The position numbers were made by a program, and so were the translations under genes. The notes below the pieces were generated by a model. It was not told the origin of the DNA, made no database searches, and saw only the letters and a list, made by a program, of their open reading frames with translations. Shown here piece after piece: positions 45,761 to 64,000 of a DNA stretch of 64,000 nt. Within the stretch, counting starts at the first letter, position 1. The number at the start of each line of letters is the position of its first letter. The DNA is from Solwaraspora sp. WMMD406 (GTDB lineage: Bacteria; Actinomycetota; Actinomycetes; Mycobacteriales; Micromonosporaceae): contig NZ_JARUBF010000001.1 in the NCBI RefSeq assembly GCF_029626025.1, positions 3,162,001 to 3,226,000 on the forward strand, written 5' to 3'.

Positions 45761-46039
45761 ATGCGGCCCAGCTGGTGGACCGTCACCTTCGACCTGCCCG
45801 ACGACCGCGACCGCCGGCAGCTGACGACGCTGCTGCGCCGCCACGGCGTACGGGTGCTGTACAGCGTCTTCACCATCCACATCGGTGACGAGCACCTGGA
45901 CCGGCTGCTCGCCGCCAGCGCCGAACGGTTCACCGGAGGCGGGCACCTGCTGGCCCTGCCATCCTGCCCGGACTGCGAAACCGCCGGGTACGGCGTACCG
46001 CTGGAAGTCCTCCCCGAGCAGGGCTGGGCCGGCTGGTGA
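45761..46039 (+). CDS. cas2: Cas2-like protein A
   Basis: A 92-residue ferredoxin-fold protein with Cas2 layout: WWTVTFDLPDDRDRRQL (strand 1 with the conserved Asp), LLRRHGVRVLYSVFTIHIG (the Q/L-Y-S-V-F strand), and LDRLLAASAERF. An extra CPDC pair sits near the C-terminus (LPSCPDCETAGYG), unlike classical Cas2. Cas2 bridges Cas1 dimers during spacer insertion. Start ATG at 45761 has GGAGGTGACC upstream. It is immediately followed by a second cas2-like gene. Confidence 0.7.
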   Translation: MRPSWWTVTFDLPDDRDRRQLTTLLRRHGVRVLYSVFTIHIGDEHLDRLLAASAERFTGGGHLLALPSCPDCETAGYGVPLEVLPEQGWAGW

Positions 46040-46326
46040 ACCGGCCGGTGCTCGTCGTCTACGACATCGTGAACGACCGCCGCCGTGCCGAGGTACGCGC
46101 CCGGCTCGGCCCGATAGCCGACCGCTTCCAGTACAGCGGGTGGCTGGTGCCACCGGAGGTCAACCTGACCGCGGCCCGGGTCGTCGCCGACCTCGCCGCA
46201 GTCGCCGGCCCGGCGGACCGAATCCACGGCCACGCCCCGTGCCCCGACTGCGCCCGCCGGGCCAGGTGGCTACCGGCCCGCCAGCCACACCGCCTCACCC
46301 GCCAACCCGGCTGGACCGCCCACTGA
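46036..46326 (+). CDS. cas2: Cas2-like protein B
   Basis: A 96-residue second Cas2-like protein: PVLVVYDIVNDRRRAEVRA (strand 1 with YDI and Asp), RFQYSGWLV (Q-x-S strand), then RIHGHAPCPDCARRARW with the same CPDC pair seen in the partner. GTG start overlaps the first gene (GTGA), so the two are made together and may form a heterodimer. With cas1 broken upstream, adaptation by this locus is probably dead unless a complete cas1 exists elsewhere. Confidence 0.7.
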   Translation: MNRPVLVVYDIVNDRRRAEVRARLGPIADRFQYSGWLVPPEVNLTAARVVADLAAVAGPADRIHGHAPCPDCARRARWLPARQPHRLTRQPGWTAH

Positions 46327-50855: not shown

Positions 50856-51135
50856 CTTAAGTGAGTTGACCAAGCGGGAAACGGCGACTTTGGGCGGGTG
50901 GTCGACCAGCAGGTGGACGTGGTCGTGTCCGCCGTTGAACTCGACCAGTTCGGCCTCGAAGTCGGCGCACACGTCCCGCATGATCTGTTCCATCCGGGTC
51001 AGGTGCCGGTCGGCGAACACCTCGTGCCGGAACTTCGTGACGAAAACCAAATGGACGTGCATCGCGAAAACGCAGTGCCTGCCGGTACGGACACCCTCAA
51101 GTTCTGCCATAGACCAACATGATATCGTGTGTCTC

Positions 51136-52332
51136 GTGCAGCTCCGGTACCAGTTCCGGGTCTATCCGACACCCGACCAGCAGATCGCGCTGGCCCGGGC
51201 GTTCGGATGCGCCCGGGTGGTGTTCAACGACGGGCTGCGCGCACGCCAGACCGCACGCGAGCAGGGTCTGCCGTACATCTCCGACGCCGAGCTGTCGAAG
51301 CGGGTCATCACGCGGGCCAAGACGACACCCGAGCGGGCGTGGCTGGGCGAGGTATCCGTCGTGGTGTTGCAGCAGGCCCTCGCGGACCTGAACACCGCGT
51401 ACCGCAACTTCTTCGCCTCGATCTCAGGCAGACGCAAAGGTGCGAAGGTGGCACCGCCCCGGTTCCGGTCCCGTAAGGACAACCGGCAGGCTGTCCGCTT
51501 CACCCGCAACTCCCGGTTCACGGTCCTGGACAACGGCCGTCTGCGGCTGCCGAAGATCGGCGACCTCGCGGTCCGCTGGTCGAGGTCGTTGCCGTCGGAC
51601 CCGTCGTCCGTGACGGTCATCCGGGACGCCGCCGGCAGGTATTTCGCCTCGTTCGTCGTCTCGTCCACGGACGAGCCGCTGCCGCCGACCGACGCCGAGG
51701 TGGGAATCGACCTCGGGCTGACGCACTTCGCGGTCATGTCGGACGGCACGAAGGTCGCCGCACCCCGGTTCCTGCGCCGCGCGGCCCGCAAACTCAAACG
51801 GCTGCAACAGGCCCTGTCCCGCAAACAGCGCGGGAGTCAGAACCGCAAGAAGGCTGTTGTGAAGGTCGCCAGGGCACACGCCCGGGTGGCCGACACCCGG
51901 CGGGACTGGCAGCACAAGCTGTCCACGAACGTGGTTCGCGAGAATCAAGCGATCTATGTCGAGGACCTGTGCGTCACCGGTCTCGGCCGCACGAGGCTGG
52001 CGAAGTCCGTCCACGACGCCGGATGGTCGTCGTTCGTGGGCATGGTGGAGTACAAGGCGGCGAGGTACGGACGAACCTTCGCCCGGGTGGACCGGTGGCT
52101 CCCGTCCACCCGGATGTGCTCGGACTGTGGCCGGATCGAGGAGAAGATGGCGCTCGACGTCCGGTCGTGGGTGTGTCCGTGTGGCGGTCACCACGACCGG
52201 GACGTCAACGCGGCGATCAACATCAAGGCCGCCGGGCAGGCGGACTTCAACGACCGTGGAGCGCGGGTAGGACCGGGACCCGTCCCGGCACCGCGCGGTG
52301 AAACGGTAACCCACCAGAACACAAGCGCGTGA
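51136..52332 (+). CDS. tnpB: TnpB, RNA-guided nuclease of IS200/IS605 elements
   Basis: A 398-residue TnpB. The N-terminal helix-turn-helix part is YQFRVYPTPDQQIALARAFG. The RuvC-like catalytic residues are in EVGIDLGLTHFAV (Asp), AIYVEDLCVTGLG (Glu) and GHHDRDVNAAINI (Asp), with the zinc finger CSDCG...CPCGG between. All appear intact, so the protein may still cut DNA guided by the omega RNA from the right end although tnpA is broken. GTG at 51136 is the likely start, 25 bases from the divergent tnpA start. Confidence 0.9.
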   Translation: MQLRYQFRVYPTPDQQIALARAFGCARVVFNDGLRARQTAREQGLPYISDAELSKRVITRAKTTPERAWLGEVSVVVLQQALADLNTAYRNFFASISGRRKGAKVAPPRFRSRKDNRQAVRFTRNSRFTVLDNGRLRLPKIGDLAVRWSRSLPSDPSSVTVIRDAAGRYFASFVVSSTDEPLPPTDAEVGIDLGLTHFAVMSDGTKVAAPRFLRRAARKLKRLQQALSRKQRGSQNRKKAVVKVARAHARVADTRRDWQHKLSTNVVRENQAIYVEDLCVTGLGRTRLAKSVHDAGWSSFVGMVEYKAARYGRTFARVDRWLPSTRMCSDCGRIEEKMALDVRSWVCPCGGHHDRDVNAAINIKAAGQADFNDRGARVGPGPVPAPRGETVTHQNTSA

Positions 52333-52382: not shown

Positions 52383-52403
52383 GAGAGAAGGCAGACGACG
52401 ATC

Positions 52404-52532
52404 ATGGGCGTCTGCGCGTTGACCAGCGCCGCGTTACTCGGTTTCCTGGCCGGGCTATTCCCGTTTCGGGTCAAGAGCCGCTGGTGCCCCAAGTGCGGCG
52501 AGCTGACCACCACCCCACCGCCGCCACGCTGA
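52404..52532 (+). CDS. 42-residue membrane microprotein with CxxC, copy 1
   Basis: A 42-residue protein: one predicted membrane helix (CALTSAALLGFLAGLFPF), a short basic stretch (RVKSRW), a CPKCG zinc-knuckle half and a TTTPPPPR tail. It is almost identical to the protein at 57245 (differences only near the start and one residue in the helix). AGAAGG precedes the ATG. It lies 54 bases before the first repeat of CRISPR array 1. The IS605-type element has replaced its upstream DNA. Function unknown; position next to both arrays suggests linkage to the CRISPR locus. Confidence 0.7.
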   Translation: MGVCALTSAALLGFLAGLFPFRVKSRWCPKCGELTTTPPPPR

Positions 52533-52585
52533 CACTCAGCCTCGAAATTCGGCTCGGGTCTACTCATCCTTGATGTCTTGGTGCC

Positions 52586-53122
52586 GGTTCTATCTGGCGC
52601 GGTTTTCGTGTGTCCGGGGACCGGTCGTGACGAGCAACGCCGTCAACTCCGCCATCCTGTTTCAATCCGGTGCGGTTTTCGTGTCCGGGGACGGAGGAAT
52701 CTTTGCGGTGGAATTCTTCCACCGAGAGAAGTTTCAATCCGGCGCGGTTTTCGTGTATCCGGGGACTAGAAGGTCAAGACGAGGGTCGCCGCGCTCGAGC
52801 GGTTTCAATCCGGCGCGGTTTTCGTGTGTCCGGGACCCAGTCACACCTGCCCGAAAGGCACGGTACCCGAAATTTTCAATCCGTCGCGGCTTTCGTGTGT
52901 CCGGGGACCCTGAGCCCTTGGAGGGGCCATGCGTTACACCGTGGTTTTAGTCCGGCGCGGTTTTCGTGTGTCCGGGGACCGGTGGGATGGACGTGCTGGA
53001 CAGCACGGACGGCCAGGGTTCAATCCGGCGCGGTTTTCGTGTGTCCGGGGACTCCATCCTCCTGCGGGAAACCGGCGAGGCCGTCAGTTTCAATCCGGCG
53101 CGGTTTTCGTGTGTCCGGGGAC
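52586..53122 (-). CRISPR. CRISPR array 1: 8 degenerate 36-bp repeats, 7 spacers
   Basis: Repeats start at 52586, 52659, 52731, 52802, 52873, 52944, 53017 and 53087. The plus-strand consensus begins GTTTCAATCCGGCGCGG and ends TTTTCGTGTGTCCGGGGAC. Spacers are 34-38 bp. Read on the minus strand the repeat ends ATTGAAAC, the usual 8-nt crRNA handle of type III/I-B systems, so transcription should run leftward. Only the rightmost repeat matches the consensus fully; the others have substitutions or 1-2 bp deletions, worst at the left, as expected for the old trailer end. Confidence 0.95.
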
Positions 53123-53460
53123 CGTGTCCGAAATGTCGGCCGGTCTGAGCTGGGCAAACAGGTGACTCGGAGGGCAACCTCATGATCATCATGATCTTGG
53201 TGCCGGCTTAGTTGATCTCCGTAAGGTGAGTTTTCGCAGGTCGGGCTTACTTTGGGATCTTTCCGCCAACCTCCCCCGGATCCCGGGCGTGTCGGAGGTT
53301 GTCGCAATCGACATTTCGCCACAACTCCGGCACTTAATCTTGCGTACATCGATGTGCTGTCCGTCCTTGATGGATGCTGATGGGCTCGGCGTGGCTGTCT
53401 CACCTCCCGTCCGGTAGTCGCCGACAGGCCGATGTGGAAATTGTCGCTCACCGGGTTGGC
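53123..53460 (-). promoter_or_regulatory. Leader of CRISPR array 1
   Basis: This flank is ~85% identical by eye to 59089-59440 beside array 2 (shared CGTGTCCGAAATGTCGG, CAACCTCATGATCATC, ACTTTGGGATCTTTCCGCC, CTTGCGTACATCGATG, GATGTGGAAATTGTCGCTCA). It directly abuts the best-conserved repeat, so it is the leader; open frames in it are not conserved between copies. Confidence 0.8.
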
Positions 53461-57211: not shown

Positions 57212-57244
57212 ACCATCCTCATCCGTAGGGAAGGGCAGAGGATC

Positions 57245-57373
57245 ATGGACATCTGCGCGTTGACGAGCGCCGCGTTGCTCGGCTTCCTGGCCGGCCTGTT
57301 CTCGTTCCGAGTCAAGAGCCGCTGGTGCCCCAAGTGCGGCGAGCTGACCACCACCCCACCACCGCCACGCTGA
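57245..57373 (+). CDS. 42-residue membrane microprotein with CxxC, copy 2
   Basis: A 42-residue protein nearly identical to the one at 52404: CALTSAALLGFLAGLFSF membrane helix, RVKSRW, CPKCGELTTTPPPPR. AGGGCAGAGG precedes the ATG. The ~60 bases after the stop (CCCAGCC...AAATTCGGCTCGGG) are also shared with copy 1 and lead straight into the CRISPR array 54 bases away. The strict repetition of gene plus spacing at both arrays argues for a real gene. Confidence 0.75.
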   Translation: MDICALTSAALLGFLAGLFSFRVKSRWCPKCGELTTTPPPPR

Positions 57374-57647
57374 CACCCAGCCCCAAAATTCGGCTCGGGG
57401 CTTCTCGTTACTCGCGTCTTGGGGCCTGTTTCAATCCGGCGCGGTTTTCGTGTGTCCGGGGACTGCGGCCCGCTACGTGGACCCCGCCAACCCTAGCGAG
57501 TTTCAATCCGGCGCGGTTTTCGTGTGTCTGGGGACTGGAGAGCTCTATCGGGTCGAAGGCAACTGAGACGGCCCAGGTTTCAATCCGGCGCGGTTTTCGT
57601 GTGTCTGGGGACGGCAGCCCTTACCGTTGTGGCGGGAGCGTTTGCAA

Positions 57648-58533
57648 TGAGGCTTATTCAGCAGGCCTCCGACCCGCTACAGTAGACCCCCAATAAAAGG
57701 ACGATCCGCTCTTCCGTAGGATGGAGTTACCACACAACATCACAAAGAAAAGCGGACCGCCGAACATGTATCATACCACTGGCTTCACCACGGACCAGAT
57801 CCGCGACCTCTGCGTGCTGGTCCGAGCGGAATGCCAGGATCTGGATGTGGAGCCGTGGCCCCCGGTCCTTGGTCTCTACCGCGCTGTCGTCGTCGCGTTG
57901 ACCTACATGCGTCGCAACCGCGTCCAAGCGGAGATCGCCGAAGCACACGGCGTCTCCCAGCCGACGATCTCGCGAGCGGTCACCGGCATCACCCCGGTCC
58001 TCGATCGCGTGCTGACGGAGTTCGTACCGACAGCCGACGACCTCAGCCCGACCGACCAGTACATCGTCGACGGCACCCTGCTTCCCTGCTGGTCATGGCG
58101 CACGCACCGCTGTCTGTACTCCGGCAAGCACAAGACCACGGGCATGAGCGTCCAGGTCGCCTGCACCCTCGACGGCGCGCTCGCCTGGATCTCCGATCCC
58201 GTCACCGGCAACCACCACGACTCGTACGCGATCAACGACACCGGGGTCCTCGTCACCCTGAATCCCGGAGACTGGATCGGTGACAAGGGCTACGTCGGCA
58301 ACGGCATGATCACCCCGTACAAGAAGCCCAAAGGTGGCGAGCTCGCGGAATGGCAGAAGGAATACAACAGGCAGGTCAACAAGATCCGCTGGGTTGTGGA
58401 ACAGGTCGTCGCGAACCTGAAGACATGGCGGATCCTGCACACCGACTACCGCAGACCGCTCGCGACCTTCACAGAAACGATCTCCTGTGTTATCGGGTTG
58501 CACTTCTACAGGATGGCCTGTGAATAGACCTCA
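57648..58533 (+). mobile_element. IS5-family (ISL2-like) insertion in spacer 3 of array 2
   Basis: Imperfect terminal inverted repeats are visible: TGAGGCTTATTCAGCAGGCC at the left, and at the right the complement of TGAGGTCTATTCACAGGCC. The flanking spacer pieces (57613-57647 and 58534-58539) add up to about 38-41 bp, the size of one spacer, so the IS interrupted a pre-existing spacer. The target duplication is too short to define. Confidence 0.75.
57721..58527 (+). CDS. IS5-family transposase (DDE_Tnp_4 type)
   Basis: A 268-residue intact transposase: HTH (EIAEAHGVSQPTISRAVTGI), first Asp in DQYIVDGTLLPCW, second in DWIGDKGYVGNG, and Glu in INKIRWVVEQVVANLKTWRI. ATG at 57721 or 57766. It differs from the other IS5-family enzyme in the window (49976), which uses frameshifting. 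Its lower GC and codon use show recent arrival. Confidence 0.9.
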   Translation: MELPHNITKKSGPPNMYHTTGFTTDQIRDLCVLVRAECQDLDVEPWPPVLGLYRAVVVALTYMRRNRVQAEIAEAHGVSQPTISRAVTGITPVLDRVLTEFVPTADDLSPTDQYIVDGTLLPCWSWRTHRCLYSGKHKTTGMSVQVACTLDGALAWISDPVTGNHHDSYAINDTGVLVTLNPGDWIGDKGYVGNGMITPYKKPKGGELAEWQKEYNRQVNKIRWVVEQVVANLKTWRILHTDYRRPLATFTETISCVIGLHFYRMACE

Positions 58534-59088
58534 ATAGAGGTTTCAATCCGGCGCGGTTTTCGTGTGTCTGGGGACTTGCAAGTCCGAGCATGCCATCCGG
58601 CATTTCTCACGTTTCAATCCGGCGCGGTTTTCGTGTGTCTGGGGACACGATGAGCTTTTCTGACATGCCCCCTCATGAGCAGGTTTCAATCCGGCGCGGT
58701 TTTCGTGTGTCTGGGGACACGCGTGTAGAGGAAGGAGTTTCGCCCTCCCCGAATTGTTTCAATCCGGCGCGGTTTTCGTGTGTCTGGGGACCTGGGGACC
58801 AAGGTCCTTCTCGAACGCATGACGGCGATCAACACCGGTTTCAATCCGGCGCGGTTTTCGTGTGTCTGGGGACAGCTACGAAATTGAGGTTACCTGCCAC
58901 GGAACCTCTAGTTTCAATCCGGCGCGGTTTTCGTGTGTCTGGGGACTGAGGGAGAAGGCGACAGCTGAGGGAAAGAAGGTTTCAATCCGGCGCGGTTTTC
59001 GTGTGTCTGGGGACATTCGGTCACGCTGATCTCGCCAAAGTCTGGCGCTTTGGTTTCAATCCGGCGCGGTTTTCGTGTGTCTGGGGAC

Positions 59089-59413
59089 CGTGTCCGAAAT
59101 GTCGGGCGGTCTGAGCTGGGCAAACATGGTGCTCCGAGGGCAACCTCATGATCATCGTGATCTTGGTGGCGGCTCGGATGATCTCTGTGGGGCGGGTTTC
59201 CGCAGCTCGGGCGTACTTTGGGATCTTTCCGCCAACCTCCCCAGGATCCCGGGCGTGTCGGAGGTTGCCGCAATCGACATTCCACCGCGACTCCGGCACC
59301 TAATCTTGCGTACATCGATGTTCTGTCCGTCCTCGATGGAGGCCGCTGGGCCCGGCGTGGCTGTCCCACCTCCCGTCCGGTAGTCGCCCACAGGCCGATG
59401 TGGAAATTGTCGC
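59089..59413 (-). promoter_or_regulatory. Leader of CRISPR array 2
   Basis: Homologous to 53123-53460 (see array 1 leader). The homology reaches a few codons into the end of the SAVED-like gene, meaning that the duplication unit included DNA beyond the leader. Transcription of the array is expected to start here and run left; both this and the SAVED-like gene read in the same direction, so read-through could also feed the array. Confidence 0.8.
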
Positions 59414-60541
59414 TCACCGGGTCGGCTCCGGCAAGGGAAACGGTTGGTACGAGTGGGTGTCCCGGTCGAACGAAAAGACCGTCCACCGCCCCGGATCCGG
59501 TGCCGCCAGGCGGGCACCCAACGCCAGCGAGATCGCCACCGAGCCGCTGAGGAACACCGCGTACCGGCCGGTGCGGGCCGCACTCGGCAACGCAGCGGCC
59601 AGCCACTCCCGGCGGGCCTGCTCCACCACCCCGGTATAGGTGGCCGCGTCCTCGGCCAGCAACGAACCCGCGCTGCGCAGCACCAACAGGTGACCGATGC
59701 CGTGTTGTCGGCAGGTGTCCCGTACCGGATCGGCGAACTGGCGCCCGAAACCCTGCAGATCCAGCGCGAGCGCCGCCCGCGACGGATCCCCGCCCGCCAC
59801 GACCTCCAGGCTCGCCGACAGCGGAGCCGCCGCCGACTCGGTGGCCCGCAACGCCGTCGCCGCGAAATACGGGGGAGACCCGTCGGCCTGGCGGACGGCG
59901 TGGACCCGCACCTCACGCGAATGGGTGTGACCCAGCCGGGCCCCGAACCAGAACGCCAGATGCAGTGGCATCGTCGGGATCAGATTGACCCGGGTCGCCT
60001 CCGGCGTCAGCCGCTGCGCCAGCATCAACGCGTTGAACGTCTCATCCGCCAACTCCTCGACCCGAGACTTGTCCACCACCGGATCGCCGGACAAGGTGAC
60101 CGCCGTCGCCACCGTCACCGCACACGTCGACCGGCTGAACTCCTCGGCCTGCTGCTCGTACTGCCGGGCCCTGGCCAGCCCGCGCCCGACGTCGCGCGCG
60201 GTCACCACGATCCCCACCTGCACCTGCCGGTGCGCCCGCTCCCGCAGCCCGAACCCGGCCACCAGCAGCGCCACCCCGGCCAGGCAGCCCACCACGAACC
60301 ACCACCGGCCGGCCGCCTCACCGACCATCACCGACTTGGCCGCCTCGACACCGAACCCGCCGGCCAGCGCACCGCCGACCGCCACCGCCGCCGTCCCGTC
60401 CGACAACGCCGCCCGCAGCCCGCCCGCCCAGCCGTCCCGGTCACCGCCCGCCCCGCCGCCGGCTCGGCCCGCCCGGCCGCCACCGGTGGCCGAGCCGAAC
60501 ACCGTCAACCGTGGCCCGTCCCACCGATCGTCCGTCACCAT
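59414..60541 (-). CDS. Membrane-anchored SAVED-like (cyclic-nucleotide sensor) protein
   Basis: A 375-residue protein. A Gly-rich N-terminus is followed by one or two membrane spans (residues ~48-65 weak, ~80-98 clear: WWFVVGCLAGVALLVAGF) and a ~260-residue soluble domain of two similar halves: MPLHLAFWFGARLGHTHSRE then VRVHAVRQADGSPPYFA, and VAISLALGARLAAPDPGRWT then VFSFDRDTHSYQPFPL. This is the pattern of SAVED, a tandem CARF-like sensor of cyclic oligonucleotides in CBASS and some type III CRISPR loci. No effector domain other than the membrane part is present. Divergent from the CARF-HEPN gene. Confidence 0.65.
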   Translation of the reverse strand: MVTDDRWDGPRLTVFGSATGGGRAGRAGGGAGGDRDGWAGGLRAALSDGTAAVAVGGALAGGFGVEAAKSVMVGEAAGRWWFVVGCLAGVALLVAGFGLRERAHRQVQVGIVVTARDVGRGLARARQYEQQAEEFSRSTCAVTVATAVTLSGDPVVDKSRVEELADETFNALMLAQRLTPEATRVNLIPTMPLHLAFWFGARLGHTHSREVRVHAVRQADGSPPYFAATALRATESAAAPLSASLEVVAGGDPSRAALALDLQGFGRQFADPVRDTCRQHGIGHLLVLRSAGSLLAEDAATYTGVVEQARREWLAAALPSAARTGRYAVFLSGSVAISLALGARLAAPDPGRWTVFSFDRDTHSYQPFPLPEPTR

Positions 60542-60693
60542 GAGATCATCGACGCCACCCCGCCACTGTGGAACCCCACCGCCGGGACACACCGATGATC
60601 GGATTTCCGACACAGCGGATCTGGTCGCTGACTCGCTGGTAACGTCTGCCGGCTCAACAACATCATCGAATAGTGATCGGGATAGGACGGACC

Positions 60694-63084
60694 GTGTCCC
60701 CTTGCACTGTCTACCTGCTACACGCCGTCGGCCACGCCGACCTGGGCGTACCGCCGCCGGACACCGCCGGTGCCACCGACCTGCTCGCCCAACTCGCCCA
60801 CCTGTCACCCGGCGACGACCGCGTCGCGGACATCCTGCGGCTACGCACCCCGCCGCAGACCACCAGCGACACCGCGCCGCTCGCCGCCGCACTCGCCGCG
60901 CTGCGGGCGGACCCCGGCCCGGCCGCCGCCGACCCCGAACCGGCCAGCGCCGCCGCCGTACACCTGGTGTTGGTCAGCACCGCGCGGGTCCGCCCGATCG
61001 CCGACGCGATCGCCGCCGCCCTCGACCACCAACCCGACCTGTACGGCGGACCGATCACCGCCGTCACCATCGCCGAAGCCGACAGCCTCGACGAAGCCGA
61101 CATCGCCGCCAGCGTCACCCGCGTCTTCGCCGACCGCGCCGCCGGGGCCACCGACCGGGCGTACGTCGTCTGGGGCAGCGGCGCCACCCAGTCCGCCCTC
61201 GGCGCGCTCGACGCCGTGATCGCCTCCGGCCTGCCCTGGTCGCTGATCCGCATCGGGCCGACCGCCGCGCCCCGGCACGCCGTCTACGACCCCACCGCCG
61301 ACCTGCCCGTCGACCCGGTCGTGCCGCTGCTGCGCCGCTGGCGCTACCACGACCTGCTCCGCGACCTCGCCGACACCGGCCACCTCGACCTCACCGCCGA
61401 GCAGCGGCGGATCATCGACGCCGAAGCCGACCAGTACGGCCAGGCACACACCGCGCCGACCGCCGGCCGGATCCGCGCCGCGATGGCCGCCGCGTTGATG
61501 CGCGGCGACGGCAGCAGCGGGTTCGCGGTCCGCGTCTACGTCGTCTACCGCTACCAGGAGCTACGCGTACACGACGGCACCCCGCTCGACCTGATCGACT
61601 GGGCGCGGCGGCGCAACGGCCGGAAGATCGCCACCCTCGGCGAAATGCTGCGGGCCGTCCGCGACGAACGCCACGACCCCGACGTCATCGCCGCCAAGGC
61701 CGCACCCAGCGGGCGGTGGCTCACCTCCCCGATCGTGGAGCGGCTCAACGAGATGGGCCGCGCCAGCGCCCACGAACTCGCGCCACCGCAGCCGGCGATG
61801 CTCGCCGCGCTGCGCGAACACCTCGCCGCCTACGACGCCGCCCGCCCCGACGACCCGCCGGCCCCACCCGGACTCGGGCCGCTGCCCCTCGTCCCCGGCG
61901 ACACCATCTGCTACCTCACCGTCCTCGGTGACCCGCCCCGCGACGGCAGCCCGTTCGTCGTCGAACAGATCGCCGACGCCGCCACCGACCGCGCCCGCCG
62001 CGACGACCTCGACCCGGCCGTCCGCACCTACCTGGGGGTACCGGCCGGCCACCCGGTGCCGGTCAGCGCCATCGTGCTCGGTACCGCGTCGCGCACCTAC
62101 CCGTACGCCCGGTCGGTCGTCGAGCGGCTGCGGGCCGCCGGACACCCCGCCGTCGCCGCCCCGGTCGCCGACGTCGGCACCGCCGCCGACGACCCGGCCG
62201 CGTTCACCGAACAGGCCGCCGCCGACCTGCTGCACCAGCACCTCGGCGGCGACATCGGGGCGATCGTGCTGATCCCCACCGGCCCGAAGGAACACGTGCT
62301 GACGTTGCTCGCCGCCGCGCAGCGGGCCGCCGCCGCCCGAGGCGTCCCGCTGTTCCTGCGTCAGCTCGTCACCCGCGACCGGGACGTGCTCACCGCCGGC
62401 ACCCACCGGCTGCCGCTGCGGTTCGGCACCGACCAGGCGATCCTGACCGCCGCCAGCCACGCCCTGGACATCGCCGAACTCGACACCGCCGGCCGGCTGC
62501 TCGGCATCCTCGCCGTCGGGCTGCCGCTGAGCGCCCGCGCGGTGAGCCTGTCCGACGCGTTGCGCTGCGCCACCCGGCGGCTGCGCAGCTGGCCGGCGCT
62601 GATCCAGGCGACCGCCACGGCCACCGAGGACCTCACCATCGGCATGATCGCCGAACGGTTCGAGGTGTGGGCGGCGCTACCCGGCGTCGACACCGACACC
62701 GCCACCGGGATGCGGGCCGTCGTCGGCGCCTGCGCCAGCTTCGAGAACTCCCTCGACAACGAGCAGCTGAAAAGCGGCGTCCGGCAGAAGTTGCTGAAAC
62801 CGATGTTCGAGGTCCGTAACCGGCTGACGATCACCCACGGCGACGGCCCGTTCGACGCCCGCGCGCTGGCCCAGCTGGTGCGGCAGCGTACCGGCGGGGC
62901 GCAGGACACCGTCAGCGGCCTGCTCGCCGCGATGGCCGCCGGAGTCCGCGACACCCTCGGCGACCGGCCCGGCGGCGGCCCCCGGCTGGCCGACCTCCTC
63001 GACGAGCTGCGCGCCGACGTACGGCGGCTGCGCGACGCCGAACAGGCCCGCCGGTCGGCCGTACGGCAGCACGCAGGCCCGTAG
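60694..63084 (+). CDS. Large CARF-CARF-HEPN protein (Csm6/Csx1-like ribonuclease)
   Basis: A 796-residue protein. Residues ~88-180 look like a CARF domain (AVHLVLVSTARVRPIADAIA, YVVWGSGATQSALGALDAVI). Residues ~450-545 look like a second CARF (VSAIVLGTASRTYPYARSVV, GAIVLIPTGPKEHVLTLLAA). The C-terminal helical part holds FEVRNRLTITHGDG at 706-719, an RNx5H HEPN ribonuclease motif. CARF-HEPN proteins degrade RNA when cyclic oligoadenylate made by Cas10 binds the CARF. Two CARFs in one chain would act as a pseudo-dimer. GTG at 60694 has AGGACGG upstream. Confidence 0.65.
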   Translation: MSPCTVYLLHAVGHADLGVPPPDTAGATDLLAQLAHLSPGDDRVADILRLRTPPQTTSDTAPLAAALAALRADPGPAAADPEPASAAAVHLVLVSTARVRPIADAIAAALDHQPDLYGGPITAVTIAEADSLDEADIAASVTRVFADRAAGATDRAYVVWGSGATQSALGALDAVIASGLPWSLIRIGPTAAPRHAVYDPTADLPVDPVVPLLRRWRYHDLLRDLADTGHLDLTAEQRRIIDAEADQYGQAHTAPTAGRIRAAMAAALMRGDGSSGFAVRVYVVYRYQELRVHDGTPLDLIDWARRRNGRKIATLGEMLRAVRDERHDPDVIAAKAAPSGRWLTSPIVERLNEMGRASAHELAPPQPAMLAALREHLAAYDAARPDDPPAPPGLGPLPLVPGDTICYLTVLGDPPRDGSPFVVEQIADAATDRARRDDLDPAVRTYLGVPAGHPVPVSAIVLGTASRTYPYARSVVERLRAAGHPAVAAPVADVGTAADDPAAFTEQAAADLLHQHLGGDIGAIVLIPTGPKEHVLTLLAAAQRAAAARGVPLFLRQLVTRDRDVLTAGTHRLPLRFGTDQAILTAASHALDIAELDTAGRLLGILAVGLPLSARAVSLSDALRCATRRLRSWPALIQATATATEDLTIGMIAERFEVWAALPGVDTDTATGMRAVVGACASFENSLDNEQLKSGVRQKLLKPMFEVRNRLTITHGDGPFDARALAQLVRQRTGGAQDTVSGLLAAMAAGVRDTLGDRPGGGPRLADLLDELRADVRRLRDAEQARRSAVRQHAGP

Positions 63085-63254: not shown

Positions 63255-64000
63255 TCACCGGCGACGGTTGCCCGGCCCGCCGCGATAGCCGTAACCGCCG
63301 GTACGCCGATTGGCCGGCGGCTCCGTCGTCGGGTCGTACGGCAGCGGCAACGAATCCGGATCCGCCGCGCTGCCGAGCGACAGTCGCCGACCCCGGCGGC
63401 TGTCCCGCTGGTTGCCGATCTTGTCGTTGGCGACCCACCAGTCGTACGTGGTGCCGCGTGGCGCGGACTGCGCCTCCTGATCCGGGCCGGTAGCAGCGTA
63501 CCGGGGGTAGTGCACCGGGACGCCGACGAACCCGTACGCCGTGTTGAGGAACCCGTCGCGCACCTCGGGCATCCGCTGCGTCAGCATGCCGTCGTACAAC
63601 GTGGCCAGCCGACGGGGCGTGTCGGTGTCGTCCGCCGCCGGGGACAGCGACAGCGTGCGGCAACGGTCCAGCAGCCGGTCACCGGTGAACAGCCGGGTGT
63701 CCGCCCAGTCGACCTCCACCCGTACCGCGCCGAAGCCCAACGGCTTACCCAGCCCCAGCTTCAGACACGCCCCGTCGGGCAGCGACAGCAGCCACAGCAG
63801 CGCCGCCAACTCCACCCGGCTGAGGTTGTCGACCTGCAACGTCAGCCGGAACGTGCTGCCCGGCTTCACCCAGCTCGACACCACCGTGCTCACGTCCGGT
63901 TTCGCGCCGGCCGGCGCGGCGTACTCCCGGTAGCGGGGCCGCCCGCCGACCCGAGGCCGCTGCGGCGGGTCCGTCGCCTCCGCCGGCGGCGTCCAGTACG
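63255..64000 (-). CDS. RAMP-superfamily type III CRISPR protein (Cas7-like), runs off right edge
   Basis: The last ~248 codons are visible; the frame stays open to the edge. FRLTLQVDNLSRVELAALLW is followed by KLGLGKPLGFGAVRVEVDW, the Gly-rich loop of RAMP proteins (cf. TIGR03986-type Csm/Cmr-associated RAMPs). A long C-terminal tail rich in Arg/Gly (DSRRGRRLSLGS, GGYGYRGGPGNRRR) is likely RNA-binding. It is the strongest sign that a type III effector operon continues to the right. Confidence 0.75.
   Translation of the reverse strand, partial: YWTPPAEATDPPQRPRVGGRPRYREYAAPAGAKPDVSTVVSSWVKPGSTFRLTLQVDNLSRVELAALLWLLSLPDGACLKLGLGKPLGFGAVRVEVDWADTRLFTGDRLLDRCRTLSLSPAADDTDTPRRLATLYDGMLTQRMPEVRDGFLNTAYGFVGVPVHYPRYAATGPDQEAQSAPRGTTYDWWVANDKIGNQRDSRRGRRLSLGSAADPDSLPLPYDPTTEPPANRRTGGYGYRGGPGNRRR

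Follow-up and report, generated by a model that had tools for sequence, protein, structure and literature searches.

Analysis of a 64,000-nucleotide stretch of the 7.16 Mb genome of Solwaraspora sp. WMMD406 (G000:C1:3162001-3226000, hereafter the window) revealed a divergent gene pair that is probably the two-armed output of a type III-D CRISPR system, driven by cyclic oligonucleotides. The two proteins are the ribonuclease Csm6-2 and a member of a transmembrane SAVED (TM-SAVED) family that appears to be mislabelled as CorA-like. The ribonuclease was already known. What is new here, judging from profile matches, is that its membrane partner is a TM-SAVED protein, not CorA. Other genomes and their loci are designated by G and L numbers.

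An initial annotation of the window had described a SAVED-like gene and a CARF-HEPN gene that diverge from about 150 bp next to a type III array. Both open reading frames (ORFs) are present and divergent, with 152 bp between their starts:

59414-60541, minus strand: candidate TM-SAVED membrane effector, 375 residues, start ATG at 60541 or GTG at 60538 (Pfam, NCBIfam, PADLOC)
60542-60693, no strand: intergenic region between the divergent starts, 152 bp (ORF coordinates)
60694-63084, plus strand: Csm6-2 family ribonuclease with predicted order CARF-HEPN-CARF-HEPN, 796 residues (PADLOC, profile match, residue alignment)

Identification of Csm6-2

The 796-residue protein matches the PADLOC model "CARF fused to a diverged HEPN" (1.4e-61) as well as the model CARF_m11 CARF_HEPNnew_CARF, and no Pfam or NCBIfam family at E ≤ 1. 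The names CARF_m11 and SAVED6 used in this report are taken from PADLOC model names. A search of the PDB with the single sequence returned nothing relevant (one ribosomal protein, E 0.79). A profile built from nine sequences, including that from the window, matched entries 9w3u, 9w3v and 9w3w with E-values of 1.4e-25, 2.5e-24 and 8.1e-24. All three are Csm6-2 of Actinomyces procaprae, and the match is colinear, covering residues 1-199 and 274-768 of 9w3u. The structure prediction and fold comparison suggested in the initial annotation gave the same answer: Foldseek ranked these three entries on top (3.3e-17 to 3.1e-15), followed by the next entry at 3e-3. The underlying AlphaFold model was computed from four sequences and has a low predicted local distance difference test score (pLDDT, 53.5), so this comparison adds little to the profile match.

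Csm6-2 entered the literature in 2024 as a fused enzyme, about 795 residues long and encoded in 16 type III-D loci (PMC11229360), and its structure was solved by electron cryomicroscopy in 2026. The A. procaprae enzyme prefers cyclic pentaadenylate (cA5), degrades its own activator, and cuts RNA without sequence preference at two HEPN sites. Residues R295, H369, R723 and H730 are reported to be essential for cleavage, and substitution of T175 or K533 to abolish activation (PMC13187428). Alignment places the following residues of the window protein at these positions:

61186-61188, plus strand: T165, corresponding to T175, ligand phosphate contact (alignment; role from PMC13187428)
61531-61533, plus strand: R280, corresponding to R295, HEPN1 catalytic residue (alignment; role from PMC13187428)
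61771-61773, plus strand: H360, corresponding to H369, HEPN1 catalytic residue (alignment)
62287-62289, plus strand: K532, corresponding to K533, ligand phosphate contact (alignment; role from PMC13187428)
62815-62838, plus strand: HEPN2 R708-x6-H715, corresponding to R723 and H730, in the motif RNRLTITH at residues 708-715 (motif, alignment)

All four catalytic residues are kept. R280, H360, T165 and K532 are conserved in nine of nine rows of the alignment (window included), and R708 and H715 in eight, the ninth being gapped there. The octapeptide RNRLTITH is the RNx5H motif noted in the initial annotation, and the description of a double-CARF HEPN protein given there agrees with both the PADLOC models and the profile match. 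We assign the plus-strand protein to Csm6-2, and therefore to an already known enzyme. It resembles the A. procaprae homologue in length (796 vs 797 residues), in having two CARF-HEPN units per chain, in its type III-D context, and in the counterparts of T175 and K533. It differs in being a distant relative (19-21% identity in the Foldseek alignments) and in the spacing between the arginine and the histidine of HEPN1 (79 vs 73 residues). At the aligned columns the window protein does not keep R25 and F68, which have been connected with cA5 in A. procaprae, nor does it keep D100, R415, R422, S456 and Q532; the HMMER alignment instead pairs a profile arginine with R415. As regards the homotetramer formed by Csm6-2, L474 and L473 of the window protein align with L479 and R478. 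Because several ligand contacts, including R25 and F68, are not kept, the activator of this enzyme cannot be read from its sequence.

The membrane partner is a TM-SAVED protein

The minus-strand protein contains a SAVED domain that is recognized by Pfam PF18145 (37.7 bits, cut-off 26.2) and by NCBIfam NF033611 (74.9, cut-off 33). PADLOC model PDLC02014 (SAVED6 SAVED_TM) matches over almost its entire length (5e-37). Hydropathy analysis adds the predicted membrane segments:

59435-60061, minus strand: SAVED domain as matched by NF033611, residues about 161-369 (NCBIfam)
60245-60301, minus strand: strong transmembrane helix, residues 81-99 (hydropathy, mean 2.26)
60338-60394, minus strand: weak Gly/Ala-rich hydrophobic stretch, residues 50-68, possible first transmembrane helix (hydropathy 1.35)

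The two above-threshold SAVED matches and the strong helix uphold the earlier description of a membrane-anchored SAVED protein. Helix 81-99 also occurs in two distant relatives (L045, L058); the weak stretch 50-68 was not seen in the L045 protein by hydropathy, and the L058 protein starts too late to judge. Since the Arg/His-rich sequence LRERAHRQ comes after helix 81-99, the SAVED part is predicted to be cytoplasmic. A further hydrophobic stretch (residues 328-346, mean 1.69) is located inside the SAVED match, and for this reason we take it as part of the core of the SAVED fold. A structure model from two sequences (window and L046) reached a pLDDT of 35.8, too low to show either the two CARF-like subdomains of a SAVED fold or the two-fold internal similarity described in the initial annotation.

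Bioinformatic predictions of TM-SAVED proteins as a general class have been published (PMC9704534). By description, the window protein is similar to Cap14 of the cyclic-oligonucleotide-based antiphage signalling system (CBASS), which contains two transmembrane helices and SAVED: both join a membrane segment to a C-terminal SAVED sensor. Cap14 is reported to be toxic and to damage membranes upon oligomerisation (PMC10419184). Unlike in CBASS, where the signal comes from a CD-NTase, the neighbour in the window is Cas10. CBASS as the main context was rejected because a type III-D operon adjoins the pair. Cam1 and Cap1 (transmembrane segment plus CARF) are type III membrane effectors gated by cyclic tetraadenylate (cA4) (PMC11229360, PMC12642688); these carry a CARF or CARF-like sensor, whereas the window protein carries SAVED.

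The CorA-like label covers two families

The strongest match to the membrane protein came from a model with a different name. PADLOC PDLC01176, called CorA-like, matches it almost end to end at 1e-110. Both PDLC01176 and PDLC02014 are database models, and we know of no tested member of either. Three PADLOC models bear the name CorA-like, and we used E. coli CorA as a positive control for scans with them. This protein was recognized by Pfam PF01544 (1.6e-56) and, in its C-terminal part, weakly by PDLC01174 (0.0015) and PDLC01043 (0.04), and gave no match to PDLC01176. Conversely, the window protein matched none of PF01544, PDLC01174 and PDLC01043 at E ≤ 10, and SAVED was its only Pfam match at that threshold. 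Neither of the two scanned proteins matches both kinds of model. Because PDLC01176 and the PDLC01174/PDLC01043 pair match different proteins, the label would cover true CorA relatives together with the TM-SAVED family. By these profile matches, the PADLOC label CorA-like spans two unrelated families. Profile sets that share this label can count the two as a single effector.

A pair of C-terminal transmembrane helices with a GMN motif is characteristic of CorA channels. The minus-strand protein contains no GMN motif, and its strongest helix is at residues 81-99 of 375. With SAVED above its cut-offs and no PF01544 match, we rejected the idea that this protein is a CorA channel; its domain content marks the membrane partner as TM-SAVED, unrelated to CorA. 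Like the CorA protein of Bacteroides fragilis, it would be a membrane effector in a type III CRISPR system. The B. fragilis protein has a C-terminal transmembrane domain, responds to the S-adenosylmethionine-AMP conjugate (SAM-AMP) and is accompanied by a phosphodiesterase or lyase (PMC10600005), whereas in the window protein SAVED is present and a CorA domain is missing.

A type III-D operon adjoins the pair

The initial annotation had anticipated a type III context and a Cas10 with a GGDD motif just beyond the right edge of the window, and both are present. CRISPR arrays lie to the left of the pair, and to its right a minus-strand operon crosses the window edge, which cuts one of its proteins:

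63255-64000, minus strand: type III-D RAMP protein, TIGR03986, cut by the window edge (NCBIfam, 220 bits, cut-off 161)

In the sequence read across the edge (L009, up to 14178) the operon comprises the TIGR03986 RAMP gene, csx19, genes for a Cas7-type and a Csx10-type protein, and cas10. The csx19 frame is intact in L009, and its orthologue in L029 matches TIGR03984 at 2.2e-24. The Csx10 model TIGR02674 matched below its cut-off. Cas10 carries GGDD at residue 340, and a crude check found no HD dipeptide within its first 200 residues. Of eight neighbouring ORFs that we scanned, four gave Cas matches and four gave none at all. By gene content we assign the operon to a type III-D CRISPR-Cas system.

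Distribution of the pair

Among 150 genomes of the family, twelve contain a Csm6-2-like match at E ≤ 0.001, and six of these, including that of the window, encode a close Csm6-2 (at least 60% identity). PDLC01176 was found in five of these six genomes, each time near the ribonuclease, and in one more of the twelve (G035). In G114 and G105 its only match is the copy beside the close Csm6-2, and in G034, G001, G064 and G113 it matched nothing. Of the named relatives found to share this locus, Micromonospora antibiotica (L046) is the closest, and the pair is present there too. Counting this species, the divergent pair occurs in six of seven genomes with a close Csm6-2, and with this recurrence the pairing is not a chance one. 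Of the six loci, five have 150-158 bp between the divergent starts, and L033 has about 1.6 kb.

What the 150-genome search picked up in G035 is a separate copy, broken and situated on another contig. In this distant lineage one type III-D operon, all on one strand, starts with a TM-SAVED gene (26% identical) and ends with a CARF_m11 gene (PDLC01976, 4e-267). This operon, with the two genes at its ends, suggests that the partnership survives in another arrangement.

Outside the family PDLC01176 is rare in the genomes searched. Across the phylum, it matched in one of 396 genomes, that of the window itself, and in one other family it matched in one of 35. In the order of G735 three of 208 genomes gave matches, all of them short weak stretches and none convincing. 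A 16S pattern meant to reach Actinomyces matched one of 296 genomes, G735, and no 16S signature was found in the pieces read from G948, G949 and G958. Searches within the genera of G735 and G685 were empty (0 of 38 and 0 of 14); it is quite possible that none of these groups is Actinomyces, and the empty answers carry no weight. Searching 394 genomes of the class with the Csm6-2 profile gave matches in six, one being the window's genome and the other five weak; two of the latter, from f92 (G765, G680), have long open frames, and the remaining three appeared spurious. When 495 residues of 9w3u were searched against the same 394 genomes, only G000 matched. Searches of plasmids and viral contigs found no relatives, and a plasmid search with Cas10 returned 11 records, mostly from cyanobacteria. 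In G821 a TM-SAVED gene is located at a contig end beside reverse transcriptase and Cas1 genes.

Two loci each contain two tandem copies of Csm6-2 that are 62-67% identical to the window protein (L031 9377-14270 in G105; L032 8788-14344 in G093). In three distant loci Cas10 or its remnant adjoins a protein of about 700-760 residues that begins with [MV]HVFPA (L047 6820-9108, L048 7289-9439, L049 6951-9059). This protein gave no PADLOC match in L047-L049, no Pfam match in L047 and L048, and no NCBIfam match in L047.

Proposed function and alternatives

We propose the following mechanism. Cas10 would produce cyclic oligoadenylates upon recognition of target RNA, since the GGDD cyclase motif is kept and there is no sign of an HD nuclease. 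Csm6-2 would bind one cyclic oligoadenylate within its intramolecular CARF pair, and its HEPN sites would then cut RNA without sequence preference, as shown for A. procaprae and as the four conserved catalytic residues suggest here. TM-SAVED would sense a cyclic oligonucleotide through its cytoplasmic SAVED domain, oligomerise, and open or damage the membrane, as has been proposed for Cap14. Acting together, both arms would stop the cell. With catalytic residues complete on one side and a SAVED protein with a membrane helix on the other, the ribonuclease arm and membrane arm of the initial annotation are plausible. Its interpretation holds in part: the domains and the type III-D context stand, and the statement that the combination was unrecognised does not, since Csm6-2 has been known since 2024 and is found in print beside a membrane effector called CorA (PMC11229360, PMC12830947).

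Several observations weigh against this proposal. The Csm6-2 of G079 (L030 9605-11995), which is 79-80% identical to that of the window, has no TM-SAVED, Cas10, Cas1, Cas2 or any of the three RAMP proteins in the 19 kb read, and PDLC01176 matches nowhere in the G079 genome. A tblastn search revealed no TM-SAVED in seven loci with a Csm6-2-like protein of about 30% identity (L034-L037, L039, L040, L049), and the f92 pair of loci likewise shows none. Cas10 and RAMP genes lie close by in five of the seven; of the other two, L037 gave a short match to Cas10 alone and L035 none to any queried gene. In G035, the TM-SAVED protein falls short of the SAVED cut-offs of both Pfam and NCBIfam, and the CARF_m11 protein (L087 4014-6434) does not carry T175, K533, H369 or R723 at the matching positions of an uncertain alignment. 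Because it mostly lacks the catalytic and ligand residues of Csm6-2 in this alignment, the pair would not always include a canonical ribonuclease, and the CARF_m11 protein is possibly another effector or a regulator. The Foldseek matches of Csm6-2 have TM-scores of about 0.2 and root-mean-square deviations above 20 Å. For the membrane protein, no SAVED structure was found among PDB sequences, either with the single sequence (best E 0.24) or with profiles of two or six proteins (best E 5.7 and 0.52). Nor does hydropathy alone settle the topology, as stretch 328-346 (1.69) outscores the weak N-terminal stretch (1.35).

The published record on this pairing leaves a loose end. According to the 2024 survey, Csm6-2 is found beside, and twice fused to, a divergent Actinomyces clade of CorA that comes without SAM-AMP degrading enzymes, and cyclic hexaadenylate (cA6) is offered as a speculative ligand of this clade (PMC11229360). 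CorA was reported in five of 12 type III-D loci that hold a Crn4 ORF beside Csm6-2 (PMC12830947); the window has no Crn4 gene in the 170 bp between Csm6-2 and the cas operon, the interval to which our search for Crn4 was confined. The 2025 classification leaves undecided what the III-D CorA homologue detects, be it SAM-AMP or some other molecule (PMC12669027), and the SAM-AMP paper had found CorA using CCTyper profiles at 1e-20 (PMC10600005). Two things make the III-D "CorA" puzzling: the absence of accompanying SAM-AMP enzymes and its pairing with Csm6-2. In open-access text, and in titles and abstract beginnings for CorA/SAVED, TM-SAVED/CRISPR and CARF/SAVED/HEPN, we found no description of TM-SAVED as a partner of Csm6-2. 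We consider it an even call whether the actinobacterial III-D "CorA" is this same TM-SAVED protein, named through the mislabelled profile, so that type III-D systems would pair Csm6-2 with a SAVED-gated membrane effector, with SAVED either tuned to cA5 or cA6 or served by a second messenger from the same Cas10. If so, a cyclic oligonucleotide would be a likelier ligand than SAM-AMP. The identification may explain what the III-D "CorA" senses, and the SAVED domain makes this a question that can be answered by a binding assay. To our knowledge, no SAVED domain is known to take cA5 or cA6, and the window protein would be the first one tuned to these ligands if that version holds.

A single signal for both arms, as put forward in the initial annotation, is suggested by the tendency of effectors in one locus to share a messenger (PMC11229360). 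A two-messenger design keeps some weight because a SAVED domain taking cA5 or cA6 would be new. In such a design Csm6-2 (with cA5 or cA6, for example) and TM-SAVED (with cyclic triadenylate, cA3, or cA4, for example) would read different products of Cas10 and fire at different thresholds. The preference of A. procaprae Csm6-2 for cA5 would fit, as would the cyclic di-, tri- and tetranucleotides bound by SAVED domains (PMC11229360, PMC13187428). Nevertheless we regard this design as rather unlikely: among 1113 loci, effectors with different cyclic oligoadenylates are reported to share a locus very rarely, with CorA a named exception (PMC11229360), and with R25 and F68 not kept, the cA5 preference may not hold for the window enzyme.

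TM-SAVED could instead act at the membrane as a sponge or ring nuclease, lowering the signal and shielding the cell from Csm6-2, and would then not be an effector. The SAVED domain of CalpL is a ring nuclease (PMC12409355, PMC11417357), and our general scans, in which none was looked for by name, turned up no ring nuclease. However, such a role needs no membrane anchor, A. procaprae Csm6-2 already degrades its activator, and Cap14, with its transmembrane helices and SAVED, is reported to be toxic (PMC10419184), which makes this explanation quite improbable. Least credible by far is that the membrane protein is a true member of the CorA channel family and is gated by SAM-AMP. Such a channel would account for the PADLOC model name and for the published pairing of Csm6-2 with CorA, but it is contradicted by the missing CorA domain, the lack of PDLC01174 and PDLC01043 matches, the N-terminal position of the strongest helix and the SAVED scores above cut-off. 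The paired Csm6-2 and TM-SAVED output remains our preferred reading.

Apparent separate exchange of the two halves of the locus

The two sides of the locus differ in how well they are conserved between species. The TM-SAVED protein of the window is 97-98% identical to those of G060, G093, G105 and G114 (the four loci being L029, L031 in G105, L032 in G093, and L033), and across 374 codons the genes differ at 10 to 19 third positions. In the same genomes Csm6-2 is 62-83% identical, and Cas10 is 74-78% identical in the three where the sequence read covers it; together, the Csm6-2, Cas10 and RAMP proteins are 52-85% identical to those of the window. Because TM-SAVED and Cas2 (98% identical to that of L032) are far more identical than Csm6-2 and Cas10, the side with adaptation genes, array and SAVED seems to have been exchanged between species separately from the side with ribonuclease and effector complex, with a break near the shared promoter region.

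Arrays and adaptation genes

To the left of the pair, 18 CRISPR repeats were found in three blocks between 52586 and 59088 with at most five mismatches (19 with a looser match):

46036-46326, plus strand: Cas2, 98% identical to Cas2 of L032 (sequence comparison)
52586-53122, plus strand: first array, seven repeats with at most five mismatches, eight with a looser match (repeat match)
57428-57612, plus strand: three further repeats, separated by an insertion sequence (IS) element from the block at 58540-59088 (repeat match)
58540-59088, plus strand: array of eight repeats, nearest to the pair (repeat match)

The segment 45477-45752 matches only the C-terminal 140 residues of the 330-residue Cas1 of L032 (56% identity) and is followed by two Cas2-like ORFs; since only this part of Cas1 was matched, adaptation may be degraded in the window. 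The array is duplicated together with both flanks (52397-53386 and 57238-59352), the flank copies of 193 and 300 nt being 87% and 89% identical. Most repeats in the second copy are one base off those in the first. An IS transposase (DDE_Tnp_4) is inserted within the second array at 57721-58527, and an IS605-type TnpB with a Cas12f-like TNB domain (50866-52332) is located immediately left of the first.

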